From the NCBI GenBank assembly GCA_963969365.1, contig OZ017749.1, forward strand, positions 1,488,001 to 1,552,000: a DNA stretch of 64,000 bases. Direction: 5' to 3'. Source of the DNA: Asterochloris sp. CNOR1. Lineage: Eukaryota > Chlorophyta > Trebouxiophyceae > Trebouxiales > Trebouxiaceae. How positions within the stretch are numbered: position 1 is the stretch's first letter; every line of letters starts with the position of its first letter. The notes beneath the pieces are model-generated. The model had not been told where the DNA came from and did no database searches. It saw only the letters and a list, made by a program, of their open reading frames with translations. Below, piece by piece: positions 1 to 63,967 of this stretch. A program made the translations under genes and the position numbers.

Positions 1-3000
1 CAGGCAAATGGTCCACGATGCCGGGCCCAATTCCCAACGCCAGACGGGTCAGTGCTTGAGTCACCTTGCCCTGCAGGCAGCGGGAGACACATTATCTGCA
101 CATTGCTAGGCTGGCTACGAAGAGGCAATGGCAAGCAACACCAGGGCTAGCGGCCCAGAAGTGTCTTTAGAGGCCTGCCCTCTGCACTCTGCATCAGCTG
201 CTGCTCAGTCGCTGCTAGCGTCTGGTGTGAAATTGCAGTTGAGCAAGGGCGCATCCTGATCAGCGGTGCCACGATGGCAATGCAGCATGCCGCAACGGGC
301 TTTCGCGTGAAAGCTGCCTTTTGTAGTCATGACCCACATCTTGCCCCGCTTGATGTACACAGAGGTGGCACCTGACTGCTCAAACCCAACATGGCGGATA
401 GAAGGCAAGCGGGCAGCCAGCTGTCAGCACAGGCCCAGGGACTTAGCTTGTCAGCCACAGCAGCACTGCCAGGTGGAGCTGCAGCAGCACTGGCAGAAGA
501 GCAGCTGCAGCAGCACAGCCACATGCAGGCAGAGCCATGAGCAGATGCAGCAGCACAGCCGGGAGCACGCACAGCCTTGAGCAGCCACGGCAGCACCACA
601 ATGGCCCAGTGGCACAGCCGCATGGCACAGCAGCACGATAACACCAGCACACCTGCCAAAGAGACCTAACTGCTCTGCCTGGGACAAACAGGAAGGCATA
701 GCGGTCCTCACAGCTCCTGGCAGCCTCCACTCCCTCCCTGCCAGCATCTTCAACAGTGACCAGCCTTTGCCTGCAGGACCACACTGAGGCTCAGCTGCAG
801 CAGAGGCCACCTCTCGACGTATTCATGCATGGCGACAGGGGTCTGAGGGCAGTGAACGCCCTGTGCCTGCATTGCATGACAGCCAATGTCAAAAGCAGCC
901 GAACTTGCAGGGAGGGCCACAAGCAACTCAGCTGCAGCAGACCCATCTACAAGTCCCCCATTCCAGAGGCAGCTTCATTGGCCACTGAAGCAACTAAGCC
1001 ACTTGGCGAGCTGGCAGCATTGCTGCAACAAACAGTTGAGCTGCATCTCATGTCTGCAGAGTGCCCTTCAGTCACAGACACTAGATCAGGCACTCCTATA
1101 ACAGAGAAGCCTTGGGGATGCCAAGCAGGTCAGGCATGTAATAGCAGCCAACGATGCCTCAATGGGGCACTTGCATGCAGATTGAAAGGTCACAACACCC
1201 AGCTGCCCTTGACATCAGCCCAACATCTGTCTGCCTTTGTGCTGGGACACATCTTGGCAGCCATTGCAACTGCAAAGCTGACCACTCTCCTCACACCACC
1301 ACCACGCAGCATGGTCATGTTCCAAAGGACTCACCCGCTTCGTCAGCAGGGGCTGCCAAGCAAGCCAGACACATCACAAGCCTTAGTATGCTCAGCCGGT
1401 AAAGGACCTTGTACGGCGCTCAAGAGAGACACGCTAAGTTTCCAGCTGGCGCACGCGTGCTTCATTCAGCACAGTAGTGGCCTGCCAAAGTGGTTATCCA
1501 AGTGGTCCCTCCGATTCCGATGCATGCTGGGGATGGCCAAGGATGCAAGGCACATCATGCCACCATCAGACCCACCCGCCAGTGGTGTGATCGTGCGCTT
1601 TTCTGGCAGGACACCATCTCAGAGCCACCCAGCAGGCGGAACCCTTTATTGCAGTCAAGGGAACCCACCTGCCAAACGACTTGATTAGGCGCTCCCCCGG
1701 CAGGGGCCCATACTCAGGGCTGGCGGGCAGTCGTGTCACTATGTCGGATGCGTGGACAAAGTTGTACACCCTGTGGGGCAGGCGAGCTGCCAGGGCGGCG
1801 TTGAAGGCTGGGTCCCCCACAATGGGGCACCCGTAGCAGAACAGGCCGCTCAGCTGGGGCGCCACGTCCGGAGCCCTGCGGCACAGTGGAGCGAGGCTTG
1901 GGGTACATCAGCTGGTCGGCGGTGGAGAATTGGGATAGCCCGGTGTTGTGGCAGTCGAGACTGGAAGTAGTGTCAGTGTTGCAGCAATGGAGGGGTTGGG
2001 ATGTTTGTGTTGTGGTGGTGGAGGCTTGGATTCACATGACAGCCTGAGTGGCAGCCAGGCCCTACTGATGGCATGAATACAGCTATGCTTTGGGTGAGGA
2101 GTGACTTTGGCAAACAGCTGACGCAACAGTCAGGGGGGTGCAGCACAGTTATAGCTTCATCAGCTGCGCCTGGCACAAGCTGCATGCTGCGCGGCAATGT
2201 GGGCCTTCTGGACCGACACCGTGCATGCTTTATCCCTGCCGCATAATGTACGCCAGCATGACCTATGTCTTGGCCAGCACGACCATCCCCACCGAGATTG
2301 AGCAGCTGGGGCACACACACTACAGTACAGCCTGTTGCCTCAAGCAGCCCCTCAACCAGTCAACCACTTCTCAAACAAGGGCGTCAGCTGGCACAAACAG
2401 CATACGACCCCTAGACTGTGGGCAGCATAGCTCCCTTTCAGACAGCTTCTCAGCAAGCTCAGGCTGCACAGCCCACCATGCATGGACCCCCTGCAGCCCC
2501 GTGGGCGCGCCCTGTCCGCATCAGGTTGGTCAACATACTCAGGACTCTGAGCAAGGCTTCCACAAGCCAGCCTGTGGAGCATCCCTGTGGAGCATGGCTG
2601 CAGCCTGCTCTGCTGTGGAAGCACTGTTCGCAAATGACAGCCAGTGCAGCTCCCAGGCTGTGGCCTGTCAGAATCAGACAGACCTGATTGCAGAGCATGA
2701 CTCTGCCAGTGATGTCAGCTTCTCACATTTGGCTGCAGCCTGATCTGTGTCCCTCAGCACACTCTGCTGTGGCTACCTTCCCATTGCGATCCCTGCAGGG
2801 GCTGTGCGCAGCAGAACAGCTGGACGGGGCCAGCGCATACCCTGGCAGCACCCACCAGCTGTGGAGGCTCTGTGCGCAGACCACAGCCAGCGCAGATCCC
2901 AGGCTGTGGCCTGTCAAGATCAGGCTCTTGCGCCGCGCGAGGTCTGCATGCCGCAGCAGCGCCACAATGTGCTGGAACACAGTGACCCCCGGCTGATTGG

Positions 3001-6000
3001 GGATCTTCTGGAACAGGCCACGGAAGTAGGCATCACACACTTCCCCCATGCCTGCAGGGAGACGAGAGCTTTGGGGTTGTTGCACAGCAATTTGCAGCCA
3101 ATTTGGTGGCCCCGCCAGAGCCTGTGCCAGCACCTTCTGGCAGCAACCCTGCGTGGGCCTCTCCTGGCGTGCAGCAGCCTGCCATGGGCCTGCTCAACCA
3201 CCCAGACAGCCAGTGCACCTCTGCTGGCTGCCTGAGCCTCCTCCCCACTCACTGAGACAACTAGAGTGAGCTGCACAATGTCCAGAGCACAGCAACGGAA
3301 AGGTTGTTGACCAGCGGCCGCGCCTGCTGCTGTCCAGGCCCGCTCATTCAGCCGACAACCAGTGCATACCTACTGTGCGGCAGGGTGCAGTCTGCAGCAG
3401 CTGTCAAGCATCACACCAAGGTACGTGGGGCCCCACCTGGCTGGCGACAGCGCGCCATGGGCACATCAGCTTGTCGTGATATCTGGGAGAAGGGGTCGGC
3501 CCCCCGGAAGCAGAGCACCACAGAGGTGGGCGTGGACACAATGAGCAGCGATACATCAGGAACGTAGCCATTGCGGAAGGGCCACTGAGGCAGGTGGAAG
3601 GTGGAGTTGAGGATCATGTGCCACCTGCAGGCACCATATCACAACCGTGAGGTGGGGACCAGGTGCAATCTGTGGGGCCAAGGAGCTGGGGAGCCAGCTG
3701 GCATGGTCAGGCATGAGGAGGGCAGCACGCAGGCCCCTGCAGACGGTGATGTGCAGCCTGCAGGGCTGGCTGTGGCCTCAGCTTTGGGTAGCATGCTCCC
3801 ATCCAGAGTACACAATGCAAACACTCACAGCAGCAGGCCTCTCTCACCCGCGTGGCCCCACACAAGTGTTGCTCTGCTGCGCAAGCAAGGGTATCTTCAA
3901 TGCCTTGCTGCTCTACACGCACTGCTCTCAGCTCCCCATGATGGCATCCTGCTGTGACCTGCACAGCATCCCTAAGCAGCTCACTCAAGCAAAGACACCT
4001 ACCTGCCTGCCAGTCTCTTGCCAGCATGAGTACTCCTACACCAAATTGTTGCCTGCTGAGAGCAGGCACACACATGAGCCCACCTGCATGCAGCAATCGT
4101 ACTGCCTGCAGCGACCCACTGGTGCACATGCAGACAAGGCTCCCATGTGGGAGCATACAGCTGCATGGACACCTCTGCCTTTGTGACTTGATGTGCTGGG
4201 CTCACCTGCAGATAGCGTGTCCTGCATGGTGCCCATGCATCAACTGGGCCGCAAGTCCCCTGCTTGGGCGGGTCATTCATGTCCAGGCCTGTCAATGCTC
4301 ACCGGTGGGTGATGACATCCTGTATGATGCGTGCATCCTCATATGCCAGCGTGCTGAGGACTGAGAGCAGGTGGGTCATCTGGGGGCTGTCTATGCGTGC
4401 CTGCGCCGGCTGCTGTGCTGCCCAGCTCAGGCACTCCATGGGGCTGTAGGGCAGCGCAAAGGTGCCGCCACTGAGGGCAAAGAGGGAGTTAGGGATGCGC
4501 TCCCCTGAGACTGTGAGATACCATGTGCCTGCAGAGCAGCAATGAGGGCTCATGATTGCATCACGATACAACGTGCCTGTGAGGCGCCAGCTCCTAGATG
4601 AAAGCACACCAGGATAAGGCTTGTGAGGGCTCATGTCAGATAAGGGGCAACAATGCTGAGCTTCATCAAGTATGGTTTGGGCGAGCCCACCACATGGCAT
4701 GCAGTCAGCAGGAGCACAAAGTGGTGGCGGCACAAGCAAGACAATGCAGCCTCTGACTGGCCATGCTGCAGGTCGGAAGTCTGCTGTACATCGTGGGCAC
4801 TCCATCAGCAGCTTGCCACATACAAGGCAGCGTGATGCGTCACAGCTCACCCCCAGCAACTGCTGTCGCCCACTGTATGTCCTGCTTCCAGTGCCTGGCA
4901 GTTGCATCAATGCCAAAGAAGCATAGAACCTCAAGGGTCAAAAAGTAGACGGCAGACTGAATACAGAGGAAGACAGAGACGTGATAGCAGTCTACAAGAC
5001 GCCTGCAGGCACACAGGCGGTGGCATGAGTCCTCAGGAGCTGCCAGCAGGACTCGTCTTTTCACATGGCATGCTGCAAATGCATCAACTGTGCCACAGGC
5101 ATGCCACAGGCAGGACGTGTGCGCCGCAAGCAGGCAATCATCCCCAGCCAGTTGCGACTGGCCTTCAGCAGGGGACTGCAGAGCATCAGCAGCACGAGCT
5201 CAGCACACTTTGGCAGCCTAACATGAGCTCCCAGCCTGCCTGCACAGCAGCCGATGGCAGCTGTGGGTGCTATAAAGTAATACACAGCCTGCCCTCTGCA
5301 TATGCACAGCTGCTGCCAGCAGCCACTGGGTGCTGCGCTGCAGTGTATAGAACAGACTGGGTGCCGCACTGCAGTGTACAGAACAGACTGGGTGCTGCAC
5401 TGCAGCGTACAGCACAGACCTCAGCTGTTGACAACTCGTGGGATGCTGCGCGACAATGCAGGGCTTGCATGCTGCGCAGTCAGTAGCAGCTGGCAGCAGC
5501 CTCCTGTGTGCAGTGCTCATTGCACAGCCTGTGAACAGCAGCCACAGCGGCTGACACATTGTACATTGCGGACCTCAGATAGATGCGCACATTGCGGCTG
5601 GGGGTCTTCTTTCCTGAGAGCACAGCGCAGGTGCTGATTCTTGCATCTGCTACCAGGTGCAGCGTCTTCACATCGCGCACGTTTTTCTGGGAGGGCAGCG
5701 TGACGGTCATGGGTTCATGGTAGATGAGTTTTTGTGGCCAGTGGATCAAAGCCTCCCCAGGCAGAAAGACTGGTAGGCCCAGGAGCCTCAGCAGTAGGTA
5801 CAGCAGGCTGCCACGCTTGCTCTCCAGCTGCAAGGGGCGCGCAGTTAGTCAGCAGTTTGGGGCAACGCAGCCCCCAAGCAGAATGGCTCTCACCAGGGGC
5901 TCTAAGAACTCCCCGGTGATCAGATAGCGGCATCCAGACAAGAGGGTGGACATCCCTTCAGTGACCACAGCCTGGCAGGTGATTATGGTTGCTCGCGACC

Positions 6001-6013
6001 GATCTGACAAGAC
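1..6013 (-). CDS. OBL1: OBL1-type class 3 triacylglycerol lipase, 3' end off the left edge
   Basis: Lipase_3 family alpha/beta hydrolase resembling plant oil-body lipase OBL1, which hydrolyses triacylglycerol at lipid droplets. Exons on the minus strand, 5' to 3': about 6010-5892 (ends GEFLEPL), 5829-5651 (LESKRGSLLYLLLRLLG, a hydrophobic stretch as in OBL1), about 4476-4308 (LAYEDARIIQDVI), about 3600-3480 (VVLCFRGADPF, the beta strand before the oxyanion region), 3051-2856 (nucleophile elbow GHSLG), 1875-1669 (FCYGCPIVGDPAF, then HASDIVTRLP with the probable catalytic Asp), 420 to about 320 (RHVGF), and 75 to beyond base 1 (LGIGPGIVDHLP, like the OBL1 segment with the catalytic His). The 2856/1875 junction is in phase (HSW|APDV). 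The first exon and start codon were not found. A second GHSLG-coding copy lies in the intron at 2611-2679. Family assignment is firm; the OBL1 subgroup is inferred from motif order. Confidence 0.85.
2611..2679 (-). repeat. Intronic duplicate of the lipase GHSLG exon end
   Basis: This segment is roughly 80% identical by eye to the exon end at 2858-2926 and lies 247 bp downstream in transcript sense. It still encodes LILTGHSLGAALAV and sits in an open frame of about 80 codons. The donor has changed from CAGCTG|GTGGGT to CAGCAGAGC, so the donor GT is lost. A CAG acceptor-like triplet precedes it. Confidence 0.7.
5328..5420. repeat. 31-bp tandem repeat, three copies
   Basis: Three successive 31-bp units, each beginning GGGTGC and containing CTGCAGTGTA or CTGCAGCGTA, differ by a few substitutions. 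They lie inside the lipase intron between the exons at 5829-5651 and 4476-4308. I saw no match to a flanking exon edge. Confidence 0.8.
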
Positions 6014-6240
6014 CTGACAAGTGTAAGATGACAACGTGAGGACACGGCTGCACCGCGCCGGTATGCAACCTTGACATTCAAGAAGGTGGTCAACTGTGCA
6101 CCATCAGGTGCACACTCCTGGACGAGTACAGAATACCTTGTAGAAGGGCGCTCAAGTCTGTCAGGGGTCAGGCAGTGATCTCAATGCATGAACAGGAAAA
6201 GTGAAAACGATCACGCTGCACTTGGGGAGGCAGGCTTCTC

Positions 6241-9200
6241 TCAGGACTGGTAGGCAGAGACGTCTCTAGCAGGAGAGGTGGGAGGTTCGAGGCTACTGTT
6301 GGCGCCATTGCCCTCCCTTGGGGGGCACTGCTTGAAGGATAGGGAGTAGCGCCCCTTCCCTGCTGAAGTGGAGGACAGCACTATAACATCAATGGTCTGG
6401 CCCACAGACAGATGCGAACCTATATCTTCCACGTAGCCGTCCTGGACCTCAGAAATGTGCAGCAGGGCCTCCACGCCCGGCTGCACAGCCACAAACGCGC
6501 CGTAGCTCATGACTTTAGTCACGATTGCATTTCTGAAGACCGCTCCCGGCACCATGGCCTGCGTGACGTTGCCTTGTGGATGCGCTGGGCTGGCCCTGCC
6601 TACAGAGCTGGCCTGAGGCTGATCTTCACCCTGAGCTGGATCAGCAGGAGCCAGCAGGGCTTTCCTGGAGGCAGCAGCATGGGCAGCCCTCCAGAAGTGT
6701 ATTTCTTCAACATGTCACTCATCAACCAACCAGGTCACTGGCTGAGCAAAGCAGGCGAGCTAGGGGTGCTCTCCAGAGCTTCGTCTTTGACCAGACTTGC
6801 TTTGAGGCAGGCAGCTTCAGGCTTCAGCTGCTGCTTGCCTGCAACCCCGCAATTCGCATGGCTTGCAGTGCAGACTGTTTGCGTATGGTGACATTGAGGG
6901 TGCCCACAACGCATCAAAGGCTGCAACTATGAATGCACCACGTTGCAAAAGCAGGCTGATAGCAGCTTGGCCATGTTGACAGACTGCTCACCTTGAGAGC
7001 TTCAGTCTGTTGGAAGAGCCGTCGTACTCAATGACTTGGACGTCCATTGTGTCCCCAGCCTTCCACACCACAGCTACATCACAGAGGCAGACACACTGCT
7101 TGGCTCACTCTCATAGCAGGCCAGCAGCTTGTCTTGAGGGCAGCCCACACTCTGCTCCATGGGCTTGAAGACAAAAGCACTCACTTGCGTCCGCAGTGCG
7201 CGTGACATCAAGCTCTGACACATGGACCAGCCCTGTCTTCCCAGGGTATGCCTCCACCATGCAGCCAAAGGGCTTCACCTCAGCCACAGGGACGTTCCTG
7301 CAGCAGCCAGGTCGTGTGTCAGCTTGGCTGCAGGTCTGGCCAAGAGTTTTGGCATCTGCTGCAGCAACCATCCTGCAGAAGGCAGCAGCAGTGCTCTCTT
7401 CAGAGTGCATGCAGGCAGTGCATCGGCCAGTGGACCTTGACGGCATGCAGGGTGGAAGCAGCATCACGGCGGACTGGGCAGCAGCTGGGGAGGTCACGCA
7501 CACTCTGCTATTATGCCTTGTCTGAGCTGCACACAGCAGGCAAGTGGGGAATATAGCCACCTGCGAATGTCGCCAACCTCTGGCACTATGAGGCTGCCCT
7601 CAATCATGTGCCTGGCAGCTTGAGCGATCTCCCACGTCTCGCCCCGCACCTCAACGATGCCCAGCGAGTTGTTGGCAACCTGCACATGCATCAGAGGACT
7701 TTGATGGCCTGGCTGGAGCAGCGTATGACTTACAGAGTGCCGCTCACAGGGCCACGTCTTGGGAAAGGCAGCCTCAACAGCGCAGACACCCGCCTCATGG
7801 CTAATGAATCGACGCTGGAAGCCAAACAGTCAGCAGGTCGCAACACAGCCTCAACAACACTTTTTGCGGGCTCCTTGCTGTGCTAGCAGCTGCAACTCAG
7901 GGGCTCAAGGGTCAGTGTGCACGCTCACCAGCCCCTGCATCTGAGCACTGGAGATCACTTGATGAGCAAGTGCGCAAGAGTGACCGAAGGGAGGTGCAGA
8001 GTTGCATCTTCTTGAAGACCTGGGGTGCTGTGGCCTGCCTGTGAAATTGTACACTGTCCCACAAGATTGCACCAGCAGGTGCAGGCCGAATCAGTGCGAC
8101 TGCAGAAGTGCCTTCTCACCAAGACCTAGCCATCAGCGGCCTGCTCTGCACCCCAGAAGTCTGGTGAAGCCCTGCACCCGCACAGCCAGCAAGGATGCTG
8201 CAGTGTCTGCTCACCACAAATTGCTCATTAAGAGTCCCTGCGAAATCCCCTTGACTGTCCAGCCCCACCACCTGTGCAGGGCAACTCAAGTGCCCGCTCA
8301 GCATCCGGCGCCAGTGCCCTGCGCAGCTTTCTTGACGCTTTGACGTTTGCCCCAGCAGCTGTGCAGGTGGGGTGATCGAGCTCAGTACAGATGAGGCTTC
8401 AGCGGCCTGCTCAAACCCCACGATATATTGCCCAGAAGCTGTGTAGGTCAATTCAAGGCAGCTGCAGAGGTGTGAGTTCACCTCTACTTGCCACATGGAG
8501 CACTTGTTTAGCCCTTCACATGTGCTCAGCAGCTGTGCAGGCCTAGGTGCATGCTCACCACCTGTGTGCCAGCGGCCCACTCACTGCCGTTGATATTGAC
8601 CCCAGCAGCTGTGCACGTATGACCATCATGCTCAGCACAGACTGGGGCTGCAGTGGCCTGCTCAAAGCCCCTGGTATATGCCCAGCAGCTAAGCAGGTGC
8701 ATTCCAGGCAGCTGCAGGTGCATGCTCACCGCAGCTTGCCTGCCTGAAGTGCATGTTTGCAGCCCGGGCTATACATGCTCAGCAGCCGTGCAGGCTAAAT
8801 CAAGGCATGCTCACCACGACCTGGGCACCAGTGGCCTGCTCGAATCCCTTGATGTTGCGGCCCCCAGGGCCAATGACCATCCCAATCTGGTCTGGCTTGA
8901 CGGCAAACACAACAATGCGGGGAACACCCGAGCTGAGCTCCTTGTGCGGCGGTGGGGAGCATTTCTGCATCTCTCCCAGAATGTGACGCCGCCCTTGCTT
9001 GGCCTGCTCCAGGGCGGCGCGCATGACGCCCAGGGTGATGCCCTCCACCTTCAGGGCATCAACAGGGTGTTGAGGTGGGGCAGTCGAGATTGCAAAAGGT
9101 GGCTAGCAGCACCCTGCCCCGTGGAGGGATGGGGGTTGGGGAAATGTACGAGGGGGGGCAAAAGGATGCCCTGGGGTTTGGCAGTGATGGGAGGGGGCAG

Positions 9201-12200: not shown

Positions 12201-15200
12201 CTGATCCCCGTGGCCTGCTAGCTCGATATCTTTGCAGCAGCTCAGATGTTTCACCTTTGTGCGCTGTCTGATGCACCCCATGGCCTGCTATTCGCGCGTT
12301 TTCGTAGCAGCTTCTGATCGTCATTCTTGACCAAACACCAGGTCCATGGAGAATGCATTGCCCGCAAGTGGGCCACAGATGCCTCACCTTGAGTGCTACC
12401 TTGACCTCTGTATACGTGGCCTGCTGTCCAGCCCACCCTTCAGTCCATGCTGCTGGCTCGTCCGTGTCTGATTCTGAGACAGCTTCAGCTGGCACAGCAG
12501 GGACCGCACCCTCTGCGTTGGGCTCCGCCGTGCCAAAGTGCAGGTGCACGCGGGCATGCAGCGCGGCTGAGACCTGCTGGCGCTCCTGCTTGGAGCGCGC
12601 CGCTTTGGAGCTGCTACGCAGCTCGTCCCCAATCATGCTCTACAGGCGAGGCACAGGGGTGGGTCTCGAAAGGCCAGAGCAATGGTGCTGCAGAGAGGCC
12701 CTCAGGTCTGCACGATGTGCACCACTCCCCAGTCGTGCTCTGCAGGCAGGGCATCAGGTTCACAGGGTTGACTGTGCCTATCCTGGGCTTGCTGTGCGGC
12801 TCAGCATGCTCTGCAAGCCGGCAGCCAGCTTGAAGCACCAAGGCTCTCACAGCTCGTCCCCAGTGGTGCTCTGCAGGCAGGGCAGCAAGGCATCCACTGA
12901 GGCTCACCCACTGGTCACTTTCCAAACACCTCACTGCAGATCCAGCACCAGTAGCTGGTGCGGGGTGACAATCAAAGCATGATGCGCAGCGCTACAGCCA
13001 AGTTGCCAATGGTCATCATGGAGCGCTGATCTGCCATGCTGCGCAGCCACAGCTCACTATCTGCAGGCGCATTGAATGAAGGCATGCAGTGTGACTGTAG
13101 TGCTGAATCAGGCAATTCAACGTCACAAAAGAATCAGACGCTGCAGGCACGGCACCTGCACATAGTCCAGCAGCCCAGAGGCCCTGCAGATAGTTGACTC
13201 TGGGTTATCTTGGTGCATGCTTGCATCATACTAGATATGATGAAATGCCCCTCAGGCCCAGCAGGCGCACAACCCCGGGACAGGAGGTCATGACAAGGCG
13301 CCGGTCTTTTAGAGGGAATCTGGCAGCGGGGCATGCTGCAGAAGCCTTTCAAGCCTTGCAATCCCGCAGGCACACACGCCCCTGGGGCAGGGGTCGTGCC
13401 ACCTCATTGCACAAGCAGAAGGATTGCACCTGCACAGCCTCTATCAGGCCCTCAGGCCCCGCAGGCGCACTGTCTTCCAGCTTGATGACGCCCAGCTCCT
13501 GCGCCCAGGCGTCCAGGCTCTGGCAGATCTTGGAGATGGCTTCGCTCCCCACGCGCACACCCTGCACAGCCAGCAGTGTCGAGTCCATGTAATTGGGTGC
13601 TCAGGCCTGTGGAAGCAGGTAACAATCAATGCTGCTCCTGCCTTGTCCTCAAGGACTGTCTGTCAGCTGGGGTGCTTGGAATGGGCCTCCAGAGACAGCA
13701 GCAGTGCATGGGCTGCTCGAATTGCATGACCTGCTCTTTCACAAGGCGCAAAAGCCAGGATGCTGCAATCTCACAGCCACTACAGGCCTGCTGTGCCATC
13801 ATCAAAAACCCACAACCTCTCCACTGGCACAGGTGCCACCAACTGATGTGCTGGCTTCTCTGCTCCTAAACCTCACATGACAACCCTGCTCTGTTGGTAA
13901 AGCGTCTCCATTGATCCATTATCCACCAGTGCTCGGAGCAGCAAATGCCACAGAGCCAAGCACTAGCATTCAGCGCCCCTGAATCCCCGCAGACCCCACG
14001 TCCAGGACCCGCTCCTGTGCGTCAGGCAGTCGCAGCCCCTCTCAACCACGACATGCCTGCACCATCCCATGCATGTACAATACCATGACGGCACCCCCAC
14101 AGCGAGGAGCTCACATCAGACGTTTCCCTCTCAGCTGCTGAGTTGGCTCCTGGCTCGACAGCTCACCTCAAGGACCTGCTCCTCCGTCAGGAAGTCACAG
14201 TAGCCCTCAATCATGAGCACAACTGAATCTGTGCCCGCCACAATCAGGTCCATCTGGCTGTCCTCCAGCTCCTCTGTGGTGGGGTTGACCAGATACTCCC
14301 CATCATGGGTGAGGCCCACCCTCACGCCAGCCACAGGGCGGCTCAATGGGATGTCTGCAGACCAGGTGGGGTACCCACTTAGCACGGATTGGCCTCACAA
14401 CAGCCACAGGGTGGCGCAGGAGACTGGTGGGGGTTGCAAGAGTAGCTGAGAGTTGTCTGGCGTGCACCCCCCCATGCCAGCCACAAGACGGCTCTGCAGA
14501 CAAGTAAGATTGGCTCAGTGTTCCCCAGAGTGGTTGAATGTGACACCCACACCTCATATCATGCCCAGCGCTACTTATGGGAATGGAAAGAGCTGGTATA
14601 GAGCACTCGCTTGAAAGAGCTGGTCGCTTCAGCACAGTGTGGTGCAAATTGCAGGCCCTCACGGTCGCCTGTGATGCTCTGCTGTGTCCAGGTGCTGAGC
14701 AGCCACATGGGTGGAGATGTGGCTGCTCATGGACGGCTCCTGGAGGCTTGACATGAATGGTCAAAAGTCCCACAAGACAGTGCACATAGCAAGCGAGTGG
14801 CAACTACTGCAGCAGGTCCTCAGCAGTTGACAGTTCTGGATTCTATTCAGCACAGGCTGGCTTACCTTGATACAGCAGCAGGCTGCCTGGGAGGCTGGCG
14901 CTCACCTGAGAGGGCGAGCGCTGCCCCAGCTGCAGTGATGGCCAGCGGCTCGGGGGGATGATCGGGGTCAAAGCTGAGCACCCAGGTGAGAACTTGGGTT
15001 TCTTGTGCCCAGCCCTTCCTGCAGGGCACAAACCAGCACGCTCAGCTGCTGTGATCAGCATGTTGACAGCTACCCTGTTCTGCAGGCATGCATTACAGCG
15101 CATCAGCTGCTGCAGCCAGGGTTTTGTGAGACACTTGCACCAGGGCACTCAGCTGCTGCAGAGAGAATGCTGTCTGCCCATTCTTTATGCAGGCACGCGC

Positions 15201-23732: not shown

Positions 23733-23901
23733 AGATTGGCCCTTGCACTAAAGCCCTTACACCGAGTCGTCTTGCCATGCATGTTTCAACTTTGACCAGC
23801 GAGTTCTGTTGCCGACAGGCTCGAGGCTTTCCTTCAGCTAGGGGCAAGCAATGCTGCGATCCGTCAGCCCCTTCAGCAACCGTTGACCATCGTTTCTGGC
23901 C

Positions 23902-44803: not shown

Positions 44804-45227
44804 GTCCACCAATAGCCACTGTTGCCAACAGGAAGTCCTGAGACAGCAAGTGAAGCCCTGGCGGGCCTGGTCGAGAAGTGAGGTCAGCTAAGGGCCGGAC
44901 CTATTCAGATTAGTGTTGTTACAGCAAAGTGGCAGGTCACTTGCTGTCGGACTCTGACAGCAACTCGTGGTTGTGTTGACCTCAAAATCCGAGCCAAGAT
45001 ATCATGGCTCTGATATTTGAGCCAGGCATCCGACATCTAAAGAGGCAGATGGGTGTAGCAGCTGGCATAGCCTGCCTGTGTACAGTTTCCCTGGCATGTG
45101 CTGTCAGCAGGGCTGCCCTCCCCCCCCAGCAGCCCACTGCAGAACTGAGTGCACAGCGCCGCTGATCAGGGGCAATCATGCTAAAGCAGGCACAAAAGCT
45201 CTGCCGAGAGCAGGCATTCATTTGGGG
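44804..45227. promoter_or_regulatory. Divergent intergenic region, PRP18 / ENGase
   Basis: These 424 bp separate divergent start codons and should hold both promoters. I see no recognisable core element and no ORF with family motifs. Confidence 0.5.
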
Positions 45228-48200
45228 ATGGTGGAAGTGGGTCGACTGCTTGTTGCTTTTAGTGCTTTGATGCTGGTCCCTCCCACTGCAGTCTGCATTC
45301 TCGCGTGCTGCAGGCCACATGAGCCTGTACCGCAGGAGCAGAAAGCCAGTGACCCTGTGCACACGCCGCCAGAAGCCCAGCCCATCACATCTATTCATGC
45401 GCTGCTGTCCTGGGAGCCAGGTGCCTTGCCTTTTGACGAGATGCTAAGAGGCACCACACCTCTGCAGGCAAGCTGCATTGCCGACCTGTTCCATCATCCA
45501 TGCAGGCAGCTGCTTGTTGCCACATTGGACGAGGTGTACGCTCTCAGCAGTTGGAAGCATGAATGCATACAGCTGTGCATGGCTTTGTCTGCAGGCTGCA
45601 TCTTTTTCAGTCAATTTTGGGCTGCGCACAGCTGCCACAAGTGCGTGATACACCTGGCCTCGGTGCCTGTGCAAGCTGCACCTAATGAGCCTTGTGTAAT
45701 GTCTGCTTGACAGGTAGGCACATGCTGCTAGGGATGTGCAGTGTGCAGGCAGCATGCAACACAAGCCAAATCTTTGCTTGACAGGCCGGGCCAAGCTGCT
45801 TGTGCAGGCTGCACCTCTGAGGAGCTCAGATCAGAACAAACCGCGCCTGCTGGTCTGTCACGACCTTGGTGGGAACTACTCAGAAGATGGTGCGTCTCCA
45901 TGTCTGGTGTAGCTGCAGGGACTTGCCCTGCAGCAGGCTGTGCTTGACACCCCTTGCTGCTGCACTGCTCAGGTTGTCCTGGCTTTGCTCAAGTTCTTGC
46001 TGCCCTGTACGCAGCCTTCCCACAAGGCAACTGCCGCAAAGATCACTACCGCCTCAGCCACTGGAGCTGGGTCGATGTGTTTTGCTACTTTTCCCATGCC
46101 ATGGTGGCCATTCCCCCACCAGGTTGGATCAACGCTGCCCACCAGAATGGCGTTCCTGTGAGTCAACCTGCTTCTTGTTGCAGGACATTTATACCAGCAG
46201 CGGGTGCTGCACTTTCTGTGGGCTTTTGGGTACATGCTGGACAGATGTACAGTAATGGCAGCCGCATGCACTTGCTGGGTCTGCCTGGCTCTACTTCCTG
46301 CCAGCCCTGCATGCTGCAGTGGTGAGGCGCCTGCTGGTCTGAAGCATGCAGCCAACCAGGGGCTTGCATGAGGTGTTGCAGCAATGCTAGTGTGCAGGCA
46401 TTACTTGAAGCGCCTGCCACCAACTCCGTTTGCCTGCTGCAGGTGCTGGGCACCTTCATCACAGAGTGGGACGATGGTGCCTTGAGGTGCATGCAGATGT
46501 TCACCTCCCCTGAGTCTGCTGAGGAGGTGGCTCGCCAGCTGGCCAGCATTGCCCAGCACTACTGCTTTGAGGGTTGGCTGCTCAATATTGAGAACATGAT
46601 CCAGCAGCATGCTATGCCCAATCTGCTGCACTTCATCAGGCAAGTAGGACCTCTAGCACTGCCCTTCCTTGCCTCTTGTGTTGTGTCAGCCAAGCCATCA
46701 GGCAAATGAAGCCTGCAGTATTGCCACGAGCTACCTGCTGCGCTGTTTGATGCATGAACGGGTTGTAGCGCACATGCCAGATGGCACGCTGTTGCACTGC
46801 ATCAGGCAAGCTGGGTGAGCAGTCAAGGCCTTCTGACGCAAGCCCGCTTGATGTACAAAGCATCTCCCTTGTTGCACCACCACATGCTGCTGCTGACCAT
46901 CTGGTGCATCACATGGTGCAGCCCGAGATCAAAGTGCAGCCTATGCATAGCCCTCCTGCTTGCTGTTGAGTGCCTCCCGCTGTGTCGTGCAGGACCCTGC
47001 GGGCCCTGATGCATGCGGCAGTCCCTGGCTCGCAAGTTATCTGGTAAACCCTGATGTGGCCCCTGTCAGGTGCATCTCATCAATGGCTGCCCCTTGCTAC
47101 CCTCAGCCAGCCTGTCCCGAGTGCTGGCGATGGCTTTGTGGTCCTCTAGCTGCCTAATTAATGCTTGTATGACCATGCTGGCCGTCAAGTCCCATTGTCG
47201 CACATAGTGCTGGAGGGCTCTGCAGCTGCAAGCCCGGCTTCAGTGCCCTCTCATGGAGTCTCGTGCTGGGCTGAAATGCTGCTGTTGCAACCATGATCAT
47301 TTGCATGCCCTGGTGACGGTACTCGCACTGGACCAGCAGCACAGACTGTCACTGCCCTGCCCGGCCTGCAGGTACGATGCTGTCACCACGAGCGGCCATC
47401 TGCAGTGGCAGGACACTGTCAATGACCTGAACCAGCCCTTCTTTGATGCCGCAGACGGCATCTTTGTGAATTATACCTGGAAGGCTGACACGCCCAGCCA
47501 GGCTGCTGCCGCTGCAGGGCCACGCCGCAGAGATGTCTTCATGGGCAATGTGAGTTTGTGTGCCTTCTGCTGCTTGTACAGCTGCCTGGTGGGTGCAAGT
47601 TGACAAGGCAGGCTGTGTGTTACCATGTCCCTGTCAGATAAGTGCAGGTGGGATGGGTGCCCTGGCTGTAGCCTGCATGTGTGACAAGTGGTGGAGCTGT
47701 CAGTGCCTTGCATTGCTCTGAGGTATGTCCTGCTTGCTGCAGGACGTTTTTGGGCGCAACACATTTGGCGGCGGGGGCATGGCGTGCAATGTAGCCCTGC
47801 AGGCTGCACACGCTGCAGGTGGGCCCTGAAGTAGGGGGTTTAGGCTGGCTGGTTCCGTGTCCAGCAGACCAGTTGTCATGCATACACTTGCGCGCATGGT
47901 TTGCACAGGCAGATGCCAGATGCAGCCTGAGCCTCCCCTCACCTGCTCCAGGCCTGTCGGTTGCGCTGTTTGCGCCAGGATGGGTCTGGGAACAGGCGGC
48001 CAGGGGGAACTATGCGCAGCAGGACCAGCAGTTCTGGGACAGTATTGAGGCAGCCTGCGGGGAGCCTCGGCCTGCCCTGGTGCACCTGCCCTTTGTGTGC
48101 ACGTTCAACACAGGGGCTGGCCAGCGCATGTACTCAGAGGTGGGCATGCTGGTGGCTTTCAGCATAGAAACCTGCGGCGCTGCATTGCCAAGAGCGCCGT

Positions 48201-52010: not shown

Positions 52011-55000
52011 ATGCGGACCACTCTCCTGAGCAGCACTCTGCTGTTGTGGTGCCTGGGGCGCAGGCAAGCTGCAGCTGAGACTATTCTAGACTCAGGGTTC
52101 TGTGCAGAAGGCATTGGCTACAAAGTCAGGACATGCAAGGTAACAATTCTCAAATTCAGCTTCTTTCACTTTGCATCAGCAAGTCCCAGTCTGGCTTTGG
52201 TGCTTGCAGCTAACCTCCTACATCTACAAGGGCCTGGCGACAGATGCTTCAGCACATGAAGTCAATGTGACTGGTGTTACTTTGGGCAACTCCACTGTTG
52301 GGAGGATCTTTAGGCACTCCAACTTTGGCATCCACTGGTAGGCAGCTGAGCACAATCTCACCTCCAGGGCAATCCTTCCTGCAATAGGTAACTGTGGCGC
52401 ACTTGTGTTTGAGGCTGCCTGCATTGTGTTGCCACTGCAGGAACCTCTATCTGGATCAGGCCTCTTCCGAAGACAAGGCAAGCGCTCCCTCGCGTGGGAG
52501 TGTTGGGTCTGCCCATGTGCTCTCTCAGCAGCTTCCCTCTAGATGTGTGCTGAGCAACCTCTGTGCAGCAGGCCATTGGCCCTAGCTCCCTGCTGGCTTG
52601 CTGCCTGCAATGCTGTCCCTGCGCCTCTGTGCAGCTGGCGGAGTGACATTGCACTGCGCAGCTCTCAGCTTTCCCTGCTGGCGTGCTGCTTGCACAACTT
52701 GTTCATGTTTTCAAGGAGGTCGCCTGCATGCTGTGTAGGGCAGCAAGCCGTCAAGGGTCACCTGCTCGCATGCTGACTGCAGGAGCTGTGTGCCAATGCG
52801 GATGACACCCCAGTGGTCTTCACCTGGCGCAATCATTTCAACCCCTGGCACCTCTTGGTGGAGGCATTTCTCCCTATCTATATCAGCATCCTCAATGCTG
52901 GCCTGGAGGATGCCCCCAAGATACAAGTTGTCGAGATCTGTGAGCCATGGCCTGGACAAGGACGATGGCTGATAGCGGGCTGCTGTTGGGGTTTTCTCTG
53001 CGGCCTGCACAGTGACCAGCCAGTCGAAGTGTGTCATCACAGGGCAGCATCGCCCTATACTGGCTGACGGCAACTCTGCCCGGGGGGGGAAGGGGGAGGG
53101 GGAAGGCAGTTGCCCACCACCTCCACACACAGCCGCAGGTCCCCAAGAAGCTAGCCCGCAGCGGTGGCGCAGGCTTGTCGCCAAGCTCAGATGGTGCACA
53201 GCGGGTGGGGCATGGTCCTTCAAGACGAGCTGTTTGAGCAGTGGTGGCAGCTGTCGTGCTGAGCAAGCTCAGCGTTGCTTGCAGATGGCTACGAATACTG
53301 CAGATCAGCACCGGACTGTTCAGAATGGGCAACAGCATCAGCAGCTGTGCTGGGATTGCCAAGTAGCAGAGGGGACTGTTCCAAATGCAGACTGCAGCAG
53401 CAGCCAAGCTGGGAGATGCTGCTGCCAAGCATCTGCCATCAGGCTACACCCTCCTGGCTGCAATGTGGCCAGGCTGCGGTGGCATGAGCGTCAAGCCATA
53501 CTGTGAACAAATCCTGCCATGACTTACCCGCTGAGATTATTGTGCCTGCCTGCAGCGCGTCCTGGCACCACTGACATGAGTGCCAAGCTCTGCTCAAAGA
53601 CCACCCTTGCAATGAGATGCACCGGCCATGCAAAGCGTGTGCCAGGCCAGACGTGCACTGGAAAGGTCCTGCCGCTGAGCTTTGCCTGCCATCAGTCAAC
53701 TTTTCTTGCCTGCAGCGCGGCCGGGCTCCACGGGTGTGATGGCCAAGTCTCACTGGGAGGGGGCTTATGAGACCCTCTTTGGGCTGAAGCAGATGAGCAT
53801 CGAGGAGCTGGGGACTGGCACCAAGTGCTTCAAGCGCGCCATCATGGCCTTTGACCAGGGCGTCTTCATGTTTGCTAGCGAGCTAACCGCTGACCAGAAT
53901 TTTGGTGTCCACCACGTGCTGTCCAGTTTTAGGTCCTGGGCATATGAGAGGCTGCCCCTCACAAACCATGTGCGTGACAGTCACCACCTGTCTGTCATCA
54001 ACCGCGGCGGGTGGCGCAAGCTGCTGAACGGCGACAGGATTGTCTCCATGGCCAAGTCCCAGGGGTGGCAGGCTCAGGTAAGCCCTGGGGAGGCTGTGTG
54101 TCTTGGGCGGGCCTGCTTGAGAAAGGCATCCAGAGGTGCTGCACAAACATGATACTTGGTCTGTAGGATTACGCAGCGGTGGTAGGATGTTGAGCCCTAC
54201 ACCACAAAGCATCTGCTTGAGCAGCATGCTCAAGACAGCAGGGCTGCACTGTCTGGAAAGGCAATGGGCTTGCCTAAGAGGGTGCAGGTATGGGAAGCTG
54301 TAGACGCTTCAGGTGAAACGCCTGGTGCAGGCAGCACCTGGGCTGGCACTGTCTGAAGGTGATGTTGTGGTGACCAAAGTCCCAGGGTAAGGAGGCTGAG
54401 AGGGAAGGAGGGAGAAGGGGCTATCAGCTTTGTACAAACCAGCTCAATTAGTCTGCTCTACCTGCAGCAGGGCTGTTCTGCTTCCCCAGTTGAGCAGTGG
54501 CCTGCTCGTTCCGCCCATGCTGCAATTGCATAGCATGCCTTGCACCCTGAGCCTGAACCTCTCTGGCACCAATGCAGTCAGTGGCTGTCAAGTCTGGCCA
54601 CCTCTGTTGTTCCTCCTGTGTCCATAGGCAGCTTCCTTGTGCCTCAGAATTGTCCGCCTTAGCCTACACGGTCACAAGATCTGCAAGCAAAATTTGTCTG
54701 TCTGTGAGGGTCTCAGCGTGCCTCCAGCCAGTTCTTCACGGGGCATTCTTGCAGCAAGCTTTGTGTGCCTGCCTGTGTCTGCGGGCCCTGCTCAGAGCGT
54801 GGCCTTCCTTTGTTGCAGGAGGTCCTCATGGAAAATCTCTCGTTCCTCGACCAGCTGAGCGTCATCCGCAACTCTGCCATCATGATTGGACCCCATGGCG
54901 CTGCTGTGGCATTCCAGCTAATCTTTATGGTGCGAAGGGTTGTCTTGGCGCTGAGCTGAGCCTTCTGTGACTTTGGCTAGAACTTCTCTTGTGTGAATAT

Positions 55001-58222: not shown

Positions 58223-61200
58223 ATGAACCTACTGCCAGCTTCCTGGAACTCATCCAGCAGTAGCAATCAGCCCCAGCAGCAGAAGGCACCCTCCGTCAGC
58301 CAGGGACCAGCCAGCAGGGGAGATGATCGACAGAAGCTTGTGGACCTGCACCAGCTTGCTAAGGTCCAGACCTCCAGATAGATGGCCAGAGCTGTCTGTG
58401 CACACAGGAAGAGCGGGGCTGGCTTGTGGACCGGCTACTGCCCTGCCTGTTCTTAGCAAACTGCTTCTGGGCGCTGGGCACACTTGTGCTCTGTCCTCAG
58501 CTGCTGCTCTCAGCTGCAAAGGCACAGCCAGCACATGACCTGCTCATTGTCCACCCTCGTTGTGCCAAACATGTGGTTTAACAATGTATCAGTGCTGCGG
58601 TCTGCTGTGCAGAAGCCTATGATGGGCTCCTCATGATGCTTTGACATACATATGCCAACCAGCAGTGTGCCTCTGACCCTATAGATGTGGTTCATGCTCT
58701 GCAGGATGCTCTGGCCAGAGCCTACCAGCAGCACATGTCAGGGCAGCCTGGCGCCCTGCAATCTTACAAGATAGCTTTGGAGGCCATTGATACAGGGCTG
58801 CAGCTGAACGTGCCTGATGCCTGGCTGGAGGTCACCAGGAGCCACAAGCTGAGGAGCGACTTGCTGAAGTGGAGGCAAGACGCAGCCAACAGGTGGGCCC
58901 CTGGGTGTGGGGAAGAAGACAGGCTGCTGACTGGCGCAGCTTCTGGCCAAGCTGGCATTCACTGCGACTCGAGGCTGCCCAATGACTGGTGTAGCCCGCA
59001 GCTGCCCAGCGTTGTAAGCACTCCTCAGTGGTCTGTGATGATTGCACTGTACTGCCTGACAGCTCACATCCACTTAACCTGTCCAGCGCCTGAGCCTGAA
59101 AGCAAACACTCTGTGGGACTTGGCTGCTGTGCGGTGCTGGCATGTTCACGACCACTGTTGCTTCTGTCCAGGACACGGCTGCTGGAGTCTGGCACTGCCA
59201 CTGTCTCCCTGTCCCCTCGTGGGTCCCAGATGCCTGGCAGTGGGGCCAGCGCTTACAGGCAAGCAATACACATGCGCCCCAAGGCTGCACCAACATTATC
59301 ATAGATGGTGCAACAAAGACGCTTGTCCTGCTGCTGGCCCAGCTGCATGTCCACATTCCCTGCATAAGGGCCATTCCCTGTCTCACAAAGCTGCATAGGT
59401 GCTGCAAGTCAGGCATGGCAATGCCTCCTCACTCCCCACAGCATATAGCTTGTTGGGACCAGCTGGAGGGCAGGCGGTCAGAGGCTGCAGCCCCAGACCT
59501 GCTGGTCTGTGTCCTGCCTGACTGCACCCTTGAAACAAGCTGCTGACAAAAGGTTTGTGCTGAGAAAGCCTGGTTGGATATGCCCTGCCTGTGATGGGCG
59601 CTGAACATCCCTGGAGCCCTGTCGAGGTGTCATGGTAGCATTGCCACTATTGACTGGCGCCCAGGATGAGGAAGCCCTTCTGATCCTGCCCTGCAGGCGC
59701 ACACTGACCACCCATTCCATCCTCCCCAAGTTGATGGGGCTGCGGGTGCTGAGTGGCGCCTGGGACAAGGAAGCCCTTAGGAGCCTACCCTGCAGCTGCA
59801 CACTGACCAACCCCTGGTTCAGGCAACAAAGCATGGCAGCATTGCTGCTTCTGACTGGCCGCCGCTGGTGTGTCAACCTGGCCAAGGATGGCTGACCCTG
59901 CAGGCGCATGACGCATACCTTCGGAGTCCCTGCAAGCCCCTCATGCCAGCATGGCCTTCGCTGGCAGGCATGTCTGAGGCAGCCTTGCTGCCCTGCAGGC
60001 GCGGTGTGACCACACCCCTGGCCCGCCAAGGCCAGGGCGCACTACAGCAGCAGGCAGCAGAGGGACGACAACGGCCTGGCACAGCTTCGCCGGCAGCTGG
60101 CTCCTCCAGGTAAGATTGCACACAGCAAGCAGCCTTGCTCAATGGGGTCTGTGGCCCCCGCAACAGTCTGTTGCAGCAATATGCTCCAAAGACCTGTCTG
60201 CCACAGGATGGCAATGAGACCCTGTAAGACAGGGAAGTCCGCTGTTGAGCTGGGTGGTGCCAGCCACCTCATCACGTGGCTGCTACCTAGCACTGTCGTG
60301 CAGGCCACGCTCATCCCTGCCACAGCAAATACTTAGTCCTGCAATGAGCGGTGCTTAGGGCACTGGGACCAACTGAGTTGTAATTGATGTTCTGTCATGC
60401 CTCAACTGAGGTGAACACCAGCTCCACAGGCGATATTGAAAGTCATAGGCTCATGGGAAAGTTGGCCTGACCAGCCTTGCACCTGCTCTGCCTGCAGGCT
60501 TCAACATGACGGGCAATCATTCCTTTCGTCACAGAGCACACACCACGGCAAAACCTGCGTCTGGCCTGCCTGCAGGAAGGATGCTATGCTAAGAAGAGGG
60601 CAATCTCTGTTGCCAACGCGCACAAGGGACTTGTGCAGCCTGTAAGCTGGCTTTGTGTCCCCCCCAAGCTGTTGCACAGAGCTCATTCCGGCAGTGTCCA
60701 GAAGCAAACTGTGACCGACTTAGCTATGCACTGCCTGCAGGGAAGATACCAAATTGAGGGAGGTCATCCTGGCAGAGGTACTGGACACGCGACCGGCAGA
60801 CACCTGGCAGGACATTGCAGGGTTGCAGGGGGCCAAGCAGGCAAGCAAACATGCACACACTGAACTGTTCAGGATAGGGGGCAGCGACCCGCCAACCGAG
60901 CCAGCAAGTCTGCCAAAGGGTCGTAGGCTGTGGGCATTCTAGTGTACTGTGACTGCATCACCCTGGTGGCCCTTCTGACCTGGCAGCCGTACACTGCAAT
61001 GCACACAGCTGCATCTCACGTACGTGTGAGCCTTGTCCAATTGCTGGCCGTATAGGAGCGGGTTCTGGCGCAACGGCCCCCTCCCTGACCAACTTCTCCC
61101 AACTTGCAGGCTAGGCAGACAGGCCGTGCACAGTCTTCTACAGCTGCCTGCAGGCAGATTGGCCTCTGGACAGACAGCTGTCTGCATGCAGGCCCTGCAA

Positions 61201-63967
61201 GAGATGGTCATTCTGCCCGCATCGCGGCCAGACCTCTTTCGCGGCCTCAGGTCGCCCGCGCGGGGACTGCTGCTGTATGGTCCTCCTGGAAACGGCAAGA
61301 CTATGCTGGCCAAGGTAAATTTGGTCGTGAGAGTGCTGCAAGGCAAACAGCATACCTGCAGGCTTTTTCAGGGCCCGCCCCAAGACGTGGCGGAGGTGTA
61401 CAGGATCTGCCTCTCACTTCTTGGAGAGCCTGCACAGTAATCTAATGTTTGCTCTCACTCTCTGCAAGCTGATGCATGTGGTACAGGGCAGAAAGGCTGG
61501 ATGCCTGCAGGGCATGGACGCCATGAATGGCCTACCTAATGTAAGATTGTCCTCAGACATAACAGCAGCTAAGCAGGCCCTGACCTCTTTGCTTTTGCCA
61601 AGCAAGCAGGCACCAAATTGTGGCTGCTCCCATGCAGGTCCTCATACAGCCAGCAGTACAGACCCCACCTCAAGCAAGGGAGCTCATTTGAAAGTTCCAA
61701 TGAGTGGCGCTGCCCTGCAGGCCCTGGCCCATGAGGCGTGTGCAACCTTCTTCAACATCTCAGCTGCCACGCTCACCTCCAAATGGCATGGGGAGGCCGA
61801 GAAGTTAGTGCGCATGCTGTTCAGGGTGGCTGCCGAGAACCAGCCCTCCATCATCTTCATAGGTGAGGGGTGCTGCACCTTGGCCCTGCAGTGCTGCCCA
61901 TCTTTGATCTGGTGCGGACTCAATTTCCAGCAGGTTCTGGAGATTCATCTCGGTGAAATCCCTGGCACGAGACACAATTTGCTGCTCATCTGCTCAGGGC
62001 AACCTCTGAGAGCCAGCCCTGCATCCTCGTCATGGGTCCGGCTCTAATGCACCCGCATCAGCACACTGCTGTTTTTCATTTAGGGCTTGGTGCAGTTCTG
62101 GGCATCCTGCATGCGCACAACCCCCACCAGGCAGCATTGATTGCTCACATCCAGCACACCTGCTTGGGCAGTGGCAGGATGGCTGAGTTGCTGCATTCTG
62201 CGTGTTGAGGGCTGATGCCAGCTTGGGCTACATGCATCCCTGCTGTATACTTTGCTGCCAATGTCACGGCCTGCTGCCACCAGTGCTGCTGCTGCTCTTG
62301 TGTGCATGCTGCCCCTGCTGCCCCTGCAGATGAGATCGACAGCATCTTATCTGAGCGCTCTGCTTGCGAACACGAAGCCAGCCGCCGTCTCAAGACAGAG
62401 TTTCTGCTCCAATTTGACGGTGTGGCCACCAGCAGCAACAGCATTGTGGTCATTGGGGCCACCAACAGACCTCAAGAGCTGGACGATGCCATCAGGCAAG
62501 CCCCTGTCTACAAGTGCAAATATTCATGGGGTTCTGCTGGGTTGCTGTATGGACTTTGGGGGGAGCCAGGGGCCGGGGGACAAGCAACTCACAGCAAGCC
62601 CTAATCAGGTTGGGACCGCAGAGGTCGCTCGCTGAGTCTGTGTCTGGCAACTGCTCAAGCCAAAGCAGCGCTGCTGTGATATTGCTGAAGCCAAAGCATT
62701 TCTGCTGATGATGACTGGCATGAGGTCCTCCTGATGGACCTAAGGGCTGCACAGCACTATTGAGCGGGTTTGGCTGATGTTAGCAGCTCCACCCAGGTGT
62801 GAATCCCTGTGTCGCTGGATGTACTTAAATGCCTGTCAACCCACTTCTGATTGCCAGTTCAGCACTACAATATATGGTGAGGTGACTGCATCTTGTCAGA
62901 CTGTCAGCTTTAATCGCCCTCTTGACCTGGCCTGCTTCAGTTCCTTCTGTTGGAAGCACTTTATGTTGGGGCCAGCAGCTGCCATAGTGCTCTTATTGCT
63001 GCTTGCAGGCTGTGCCTGCTGAAGCACATCTACCGGACCAGTTTGAGGCCAGACCTTGCTCTGCTGACACAACTGCTTGCAAGCGGCGCCTGCTGGCAGC
63101 ACGCTACATAGAGCTGCCTGACTTTGCTGCTCAGCAGGGCCTGCTTGGCGATGTTTGTTCACCAGAGCCTGCTCAGCACATGGCCCACAACTGCACTGGA
63201 GCAACTCAGATGGTGGCATTGCTGCCTGCAGATGTATGGTGAAGCGCATCTACTCCTCTGCTAAAAACAGCTGAGCCTGCCCAGCAGAGCCTGTTCAGTC
63301 CACTGCAACACATATAGGCCTCTGCACTCCAACCTGCCATCACTGTTGTCTGCAGGCGACGCCTAGTAAAACGCATCTACATTCCTCTGCCCGACAAGGC
63401 TGCCCGCCAGTGCCTGCTCGCAAACATACTGGAGGGGCAGGCCTGCTGCCTGACAGGCCAACAGCTGCAGCAGCTGGTTCAAATGACTGAGGGCTACTCT
63501 GGCAGTGACATCAGCGCACTCTGTCGGGAGGCGGCAATGATCCCCATCAGGTGTGCTGAGGGAGTCCAACTGCTCTGGTGTGGTAAATAGTAGTATGCTA
63601 GGTGTATGTGGACTCAGAGCTGCTGGCTGTCTCTGTAGAGGCTCCAAACCTGCAGGACACTACGGGGCTGTGCTGTCTGTCACACAGCTGGCTGCAGTAC
63701 AAGTGCTATGTAAGGCTCTTGCAGGCACTGAGCTGGATCTGGCTGATGCTTGACCAGCCTGCTTTTCTGTCCCGCGGCTCATGTGTGACATGGGTTTTGC
63801 ACTGCAGGGAGCTTGGTCCTGCAGTCGCCACAGTCTCAGCTGAAAGAATTCGCCCAATACAGGCAAGCGATTTCCAGGCTGCCCTGCTGGCCATCAAGCC
63901 CAGTGTGAACCAAAGCCAGCTGGCTTTGTTTGAGCAGTGGACAGAGGCTTTTGGGACCGCGTCGTGA
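58223..63967 (+). CDS. SPAST: Spastin, microtubule-severing AAA ATPase with MIT domain
   Basis: Meiotic-clade AAA ATPase that severs microtubules. Ten in-phase exons give 470 aa: 58223-58363, 58705-58892, 59172-59258, 59999-60109, 60741-60840, 61192-61314, 61721-61862, 62330-62495, 63356-63550, 63808-63967. The start is ATG 58223, with a Ser/Gln-rich leader ([16 protein letters not shown]). The MIT domain is exon 2 ([19 protein letters not shown]). A linker follows, then the AAA core: [20 protein letters not shown], Walker [29 protein letters not shown], Walker B IIFIDEID (split by an intron), [47 protein letters not shown] and a C-terminal helix ([10 protein letters not shown]). The order and wording fit spastin rather than katanin or VPS4. 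Three of nine introns have GC donors (59259, 60841, 62496). Confidence 0.95.
59640..59930 (+). repeat. Three decoy copies of the spastin exon-4 acceptor edge
   Basis: The real exon starts at 59999 (CCCTGCAG|GCGCGGTGTGACCACACC). CCCTGCAG followed by GCGCACACTGACCACCC, CTGCACACTGACCAACC and GCGCATGACGCATACC occurs at 59697, 59796 and 59904. Spacings are 99, 108 and 95 bp. The sequence between copies is also repeated (GACTGGCGCCCAGGATGAGG against GAGTGGCGCCTGGGACAAGG). Confidence 0.85.
63000..63300 (+). repeat. Three decoy copies of the spastin exon-9 acceptor edge
   Basis: Exon 9 starts at 63356 with GCGACGCCTAGTAAAACGCA and continues TCTACATTCCTCTGCCCGAC. Upstream copies: 63009 (TGTGCCTGCTGAAGCACATC), about 63082 (CGGCGCCTGCTGGCAGCACG, with the acceptor changed to GCAAG) and 63232 (ATGTATGGTGAAGCGCATCT). 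Copies at 63082 and 63232 also keep the later GCCTGCT segment of the exon. Confidence 0.85.

Follow-up and report, generated by a model that had tools for sequence, protein, structure and literature searches.

Decayed Copies of Exon Edges in the Introns of the Green Alga Asterochloris and Their Probable Origin in Local Tandem Duplication

Exon edges of Asterochloris sp. CNOR1 recur as decayed copies in the introns that adjoin them; these copies are local, lie in direct orientation and on one side of the exon, run across the splice junction and exceed the numbers given by four controls. They are real and are not limited to the 64,000-nucleotide stretch of DNA for which they had been predicted (the window, C4:1488001-1552000), since they recur elsewhere on contig C4 and on two other contigs. 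The account that we consider probable is ordinary local tandem duplication, the products of which are visible at exon edges through selection on the exon copy. In the open-licence literature, which is a part of the whole, we found no published account of introns that widely contain decayed copies of their junctions.

Exon edges and their copies

The sequence surveyed comprised 340 kb from three contigs (C1, C4, C8), the window included, of an assembly of 56,383,464 bases in 21 contigs. Exon edges were the ab initio calls of a small self-trained hidden-Markov gene finder, trained on 310 kb and rerun on the 340 kb. Its training was damped; an undamped version drifted to tiny exons at CTGCAG, and a codon self-training on the longest open reading frames was dropped when it collapsed onto glutamine-rich sequence. 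The models were checked against PDB sequences in four genes only (PNPase, RIB72, an AAA protein and PRP18), and in these the conserved parts align well to solved relatives. The remaining predicted edges are less certain, genes are often merged and some models contain in-frame stops; errors of this kind are expected to dilute an excess of copies at edges and not to create it, with the exception of a young copy that is itself called an exon. In the edge test, the 40 bp of exon next to the junction were aligned locally to the adjoining intron, of which at most 400 bp were used, and a score of 16 or more was taken as a pass.

By this test a copy in its own intron was found for 32 of 391 edges in the 340 kb, compared with a local copy for 37 of 1358 segments from intron interiors, an excess of about 3-fold (3.0 observed). 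The reverse-complement control passed at only 1/391 edges, and the copies are thus in direct orientation and at short distance. In the 310-kb set, 21/242 edges passed versus 7/242 of the intron-side flanks; random noncoding 40-mers had a local copy in 37 of 1500 trials, and edges tested at score 16 on the introns of other genes passed in 2 of 687. The excess is found in each part of the survey: edge copies and interior copies numbered 8/78 and 6/214 in the window, 13/193 and 9/489 on C4 outside the window, 3/60 and 1/115 on C1, and 8/60 and 3/139 on C8. With a 52-nt window laid across the junction, in a set that takes in five hand-added window edges, at least one copy was found for 65/391 edges versus 5/388 swaps, and 25 edges had two or more. 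Stop- and start-codon edges gave no copies (0/15 and 0/18), counts that are too small and edges that are too poorly placed to weigh.

Along the profile from exon to intron the copy rate is highest at the junction. Inside the exon it rises from 3/256 at +80 to 4/342 at +40, 17/372 at +20 and 32/391 at the edge; junction-centred segments are copied in 26/383 cases and successive intron segments in 9/373, 11/355, 10/337 and 7/293. Whole-exon tandem duplication was rejected on the steep fall from the edge to 40 and 80 bp within the exon.

The copies are also one-sided. Among 172 internal exons, at score 16, donor edges are copied downstream in 16/172 and upstream in none, and acceptor edges upstream in 15/172 and downstream in none (pooled, 31/344 on the adjoining side and 0/344 on the other). 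At score 14 the corresponding figures are 22 versus 3 for donor edges and 20 versus 1 for acceptor edges, a total of 42 versus 4. Such one-sidedness fits duplications that cross the junction and not a dispersed copying of exon pieces. Among 39 copies found by their exon side only, 23 belong to donors and 16 to acceptors, in agreement with the original prediction of arrays on both sides of introns.

A survey of local repeats made on the window points in the same direction. It contains 67 ungapped repeats with a score of 17 or more (+1/-1) at lags of 20-600, while four far-lag ranges contained 2, 0, 0 and 1 such repeats and two third-order Markov simulations produced 0 and 1; local repeats in the window therefore exceed chance. 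Many of them coincide with the ends of independently found coding segments. The possibility set against the original prediction was that repeats are equally common away from junctions, and in a rotation test, at score 16 or more, 29 of 242 edges were covered by repeats versus a mean of 13.4 +/- 3.6 (2000 rotations, the largest value being 28). Coverage at score 18 extended to 21 edges versus 10.2 (p 0.0025), and at score 20 to 16 versus 8.2 (p 0.013).

Among the best copies the quartiles of the lag are 104, 170 and 255, so that the predicted spacings "often near 100" describe only part of the distribution. In the 39 exon-side copies (391 edges examined), identity is 84% in the exon core, 74% from +1 to +6, 61% from +7 to +10 and about 57% from +11 to +40, where unrelated introns give about 56%. 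From about +10 onward, most of these copies are no more alike on the intron side than unrelated introns, and the full tandem unit is visible in few; in simulation, the age of the copies can explain why the likeness ends near +10. Some arrays are plainly head-to-tail: at the PNPase KH exon the lags lie close to multiples of 86; at C4:1,554,120 they are 79 and 158, with a repeat longer than one unit; and at C4:1,639,079 the spacing is about 92 bp. A nearby full tandem pair extends over 140 bp at lag 139 and is 96% identical. Other cases are of a different form, for example C4:1,444,895, where a 42-bp block around the junction is 88% identical at lag 175 with unlike spacers. When the best copy per edge is taken and the six of 65 without a placeable junction are omitted, the splice dinucleotide is kept in most of the remaining 59 (GT or GC in 21/29 donor copies, AG in 19/30 acceptor copies), and no purge of decoy sites is thus visible. 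The 65 best lags, taken modulo 3, are divided into 28 multiples of three and 19 and 18 others, a distribution that is not significant and not flat.

Cases within the window

The cases named in the original prediction were tested at 25 edges hand-set around its genes, which are therefore not an unbiased sample. Fifteen of them pass, in that the copy in their own intron is equalled or beaten by none (14 edges) or one (1 edge) of about 200 foreign introns: 2/3 in the lipase, 5/6 in PNPase, 1/3 in RIB72, 3/4 in PRP18, 1/3 in ENGase, 1/2 in GT61 and 2/4 in spastin. A second copied intron in RIB72 and in ENGase was not reproduced at the edges tested. The passing RIB72 edge (26925) and the failing ENGase edge 48172 have no donor consensus and are accordingly mis-placed. 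The names lipase, ENGase and GT61 are labels of the original prediction, whereas PNPase, RIB72, PRP18 and the AAA protein were compared with solved structures. The best solved match of the window's RIB72 is the RIB72 of entry 6u42, and that of the gene called spastin (61700-63550) is fidgetin-like 1 (E 7.8e-67), followed by spastin (7.8e-63). The flagellar RIB72, the abundance of introns in the genes and the LHC-like exon noted below would point to a green alga.

On the minus strand, the lipase exon end at donor edge 2856 (2858-2923) has a copy at 2612-2677 in the adjoining intron, with a lag of 246 and 85% identity over 66 bp, and a copy of donor edge 3437 lies at 3155-3189 (source 3428-3462, lag 273). 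In the PNPase gene, also on the minus strand, the stretch 8340-8857 holds the KH exon end (donor edge about 8815) and about five decayed copies arranged in an array; the lags lie close to multiples of about 86 bp, a unit length that was read by eye. An exon start with its acceptor (12619-12653, edge 12639) has decayed copies at 12726-12756 (lag 100) and 12850-12887 (lag 231). Exon ends are copied near donor 13430, at 13249-13270 (source 13449-13470, lag 200), and near donor 14167, at 14020-14051 (source 14185-14216, lag 165), and the exon start at acceptor edge 14354 (source 14314-14345) has two copies within 14393-14494, at 14393-14418 and 14464-14494 (lags 73 and 150).

In PRP18, again on the minus strand, acceptor edge 40523 is copied at 40609-40633 (source 40502-40526, lag 107) and acceptor edge 42258 at 42408-42468 (source 42229-42289, lag 179), where CTGCAG is kept; donor edge 41959 is copied at 41626-41659 (source 41966-41999, lag 340), with a weaker copy at lag 118-120. 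The remaining cases are on the plus strand. Copies of a RIB72 exon end lie within 27056-27291 (27056-27103 and 27267-27291; source about 26898-26947), the junction position being approximate. An ENGase exon end with a GC donor (source 46623-46644) is copied at 46789-46810, lag 166. GT61 acceptor edge 53716 (source 53704-53758) has copies within 53452-53588, at 53452-53506 and 53545-53588, with lags of 252 and 160. The spastin-like gene has a copy of an exon end with GT at 61990-62037 (source 61817-61864, donor edge 61862, lag 173), and repeats related to its acceptor edge 63356 at 62988-63145 (source 63334-63418, lags 273 and 347); the best copy of that edge itself is at a lag of about 124-129.

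Duplication, decay and the alternatives

On the account that we favor, short tandem duplications with units of about 45-115 bp would arise throughout the noncoding DNA of the genome, and some of these would run over an exon-intron junction. Splicing would use one of the two junctions, with the mRNA unchanged, and such a duplication would for that reason have done little harm. The other exon edge, together with its splice site, would turn into intron sequence and then decay. As coding selection preserves the exon copy, edge pairs should diverge about half as fast as intron-only pairs, and it is due to this slower decay that exon edges would show the clearest remains. We infer a tandem origin also where the unit is not fully visible, as well as neutrality, the unequal decay and disuse of the decoy sites.

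The tandem-duplication reading of the original prediction is favored by copies that are local, direct, one-sided and junction-crossing, on both donor and acceptor sides; its corollary, that introns grow outward from exon edges, is not supported. Likeness to the exon does not clearly increase with nearness to it (the nearer copy has the higher score in 30 pairs and the lower in 22). Nor is growth specific to edges supported: random noncoding 40-mers are copied too (the 37/1500 above), and simulated unequal decay can give an excess of about 3-fold.

The simulations bear on the rate of duplication. A constant rate of neutral duplication was rejected: it gave an edge-to-interior ratio of only about 1.3 and too many near-perfect copies, with 92/189 above a score of 25 of 40, versus 0/39 observed in the 391-edge set and 1/21 in the 242-edge set. 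A rate that fell in the past raised the edge excess, to 2.7-3.7 under several settings and further under others. With units of 45-115 bp, a falling rate and settings chosen after the data had been seen, the ratios were 2.16-3.33 for edge to interior (3.0 observed), 1.63-2.07 for junction to interior (2.5 observed), 1.31-2.05 for +20 to interior (1.7 observed), 0.29-0.33 for +40 to edge (0.14 observed) and 0-0.01 for +80 to edge (0.14 observed, from three hits). In runs in which duplication ceased 0.2-0.4 substitutions per site before the present, identity from +11 to +40 is 0.58-0.61 (about 0.57 observed). A 60-bp limit on the exonic part was no help, and was rejected when the edge excess fell to 1.4-2.2. 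The neutral model thus reproduces most of the edge excess; it misfits in that observed junction segments are commoner, exon reach is shorter and young copies are scarce. The falling duplication rate is the weakest part of this account. Young copies may be under-counted, as the gene model can turn a young copy into an exon; their scarcity is then partly an artefact. One high-scoring case (31 of 40, C4:1,639,079) was lost from the later set in this manner, the model having called its first copy an exon.

The short exon reach (4/342 at +40), the copying of junction-centred segments as often as exon edges (26/383 and 32/391) and the several copies that are blocks of 40-80 bp with unlike spacers would all suit a mutational process that targets the junctions themselves, through breaks, template switching or motif microhomology, and copies junction-centred blocks of 30-80 bp some 70-350 bp into the intron. 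We consider such a process unlikely, given that neutral tandem simulations produce most of the pattern and that some arrays are plainly tandem. Nor does a motif come to its aid: CTGCAG was rejected as a repeat anchor, as pairs anchored on it have flanks alike in 22/1555 cases, no more often than pairs on other palindromes (9/746 for CAGCTG, 3/243 for GCATGC). It is doubtful, in the same vein, that junctions are hot spots which copy blocks of 30-80 bp into the adjoining intron above the rate of other noncoding DNA, seeding intact decoy sites that are ignored or used alternatively.

That the copies are kept for a function, as alternative or decoy splice sites or as small alternative exons, appears quite improbable. 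In keeping with function would be the retention of GT or GC in 21/29 donors and of AG in 19/30 acceptors, the 28/65 lags that are multiples of three and the arrays in which the farther copy is nearer to the exon sequence. The retention, on the other hand, is near the expectation from an identity of about 80% per base, the multiples of three do not form a significant excess, and splice-like sites in introns hardly differ in number between sense and antisense. At the median threshold, donors number 531 in sense versus 493 in antisense and acceptors 555 versus 519, so that decoy edges account for little of the intron sequence.

A still less probable reading is that the repeats are traces of intron gain of the Rogers type, in which an exonic AGGT segment is tandemly duplicated and the donor and acceptor flanks of the intron are consequently alike. 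This is the same kind of mutation, and a junction-crossing case is described in potato (PMC4974935). Here, the two flanks of one intron, donor and acceptor, are alike in 8, 1 and 0 of 247 introns at scores of 14, 15 and 16, about the same as in shuffled flank pairs (1.6, 0.9 and 0.4%); an older origin of this type with complete decay is possible. An artefact of low complexity, of shared splice consensus or of wrong gene models is scarcely credible, for while the edges are ab initio calls, some with in-frame stops or in merged genes, the swapped, reverse-complement, rotation and opposite-intron controls, the lack of intron consensus in exon-side segments and the alignment of four genes to solved relatives all speak against it.

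Related systems and other observations

If the neutral account is true, exon edges serve as a constant standard against which earlier duplications in introns can be read, and a single genome could give both the mode of intron lengthening and the ages of its events, which are usually sought by comparing species. Such introns also offer natural tests of splice-site choice, in which an intact second donor or acceptor, next to as much as about 50 bp that resemble exon, lies at a known distance and is apparently passed over by the spliceosome. Gao and Lynch are said to have described, in 2009, how introns can draw sequence from internal duplications.

Four published systems are akin to this one. 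In an RdRp gene of potato, a tandem duplication that includes an intron's 3' end and the 5' part of the exon after it led to a new intron (Ma et al. 2016, PMC4974935). There as here the duplication crosses a junction and carries a splice site with it; the potato report concerns one case and a new intron, whereas here many edges are involved, donors as well as acceptors, and the copy lies in an existing intron. For Drosophila, Lehmann et al. (2010, PMC2891723) inferred that introns were gained when proto-splice sites were tandemly duplicated, and the two systems are alike in that a regional exon duplication is tolerated via splicing and then intronized. The Drosophila introns took new positions from duplicated coding sequence, while here the donor and acceptor of the same intron show no likeness. 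For the stwintrons of Lipomyces, donor duplications of 4-7 nt have been proposed, with both donors used in consecutive splicing (PMC7138796); common to both is a donor element duplicated within an intron already present, but in our case the similarity extends over 30-80 bp and the copies are probably unused. Introners consist of sequence copied between genes (PMC9860276). They share with the edge copies the presence of repeated sequence in introns and differ from them, as had been predicted, in that edge copies stay within their gene (2/687 swaps at score 16 and 5/388 with the 52-nt window, in 340 kb of 56.4 Mb).

Several minor features were recorded in the course of this work. GC donors are common, accounting for 16 of 140 well-scoring ab initio donor sites in the 340 kb, for example those at 46640 and 62496 in the window. 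The palindrome CTGCAG is the core of the acceptor consensus and occurs 255 times window-wide versus 136 +/- 10 in dinucleotide shuffles; in introns it numbers 881 versus 819 in a third-order Markov simulation, and its surplus there is mostly one of local composition. Four ctgcag-anchored repeats about 100 bp apart lie at 59640-60010, a part of which is modelled as an exon, perhaps wrongly. A satellite-like stretch outside the window, at about C4:1,587,000-1,593,000 (L006-L007), has lags of about 415-590 bp and one pair of 614 bp at 98% identity, and was excluded from the lag statistics. The window also contains a 31-bp minisatellite of about three copies at 5325-5419, with CTGCAG in each, tandem repeats of 30-75 bp in an apparent Gln/Gly/Pro-rich coding stretch on the minus strand at 38356-38719 and, by our own reading, an LHC-like exon.
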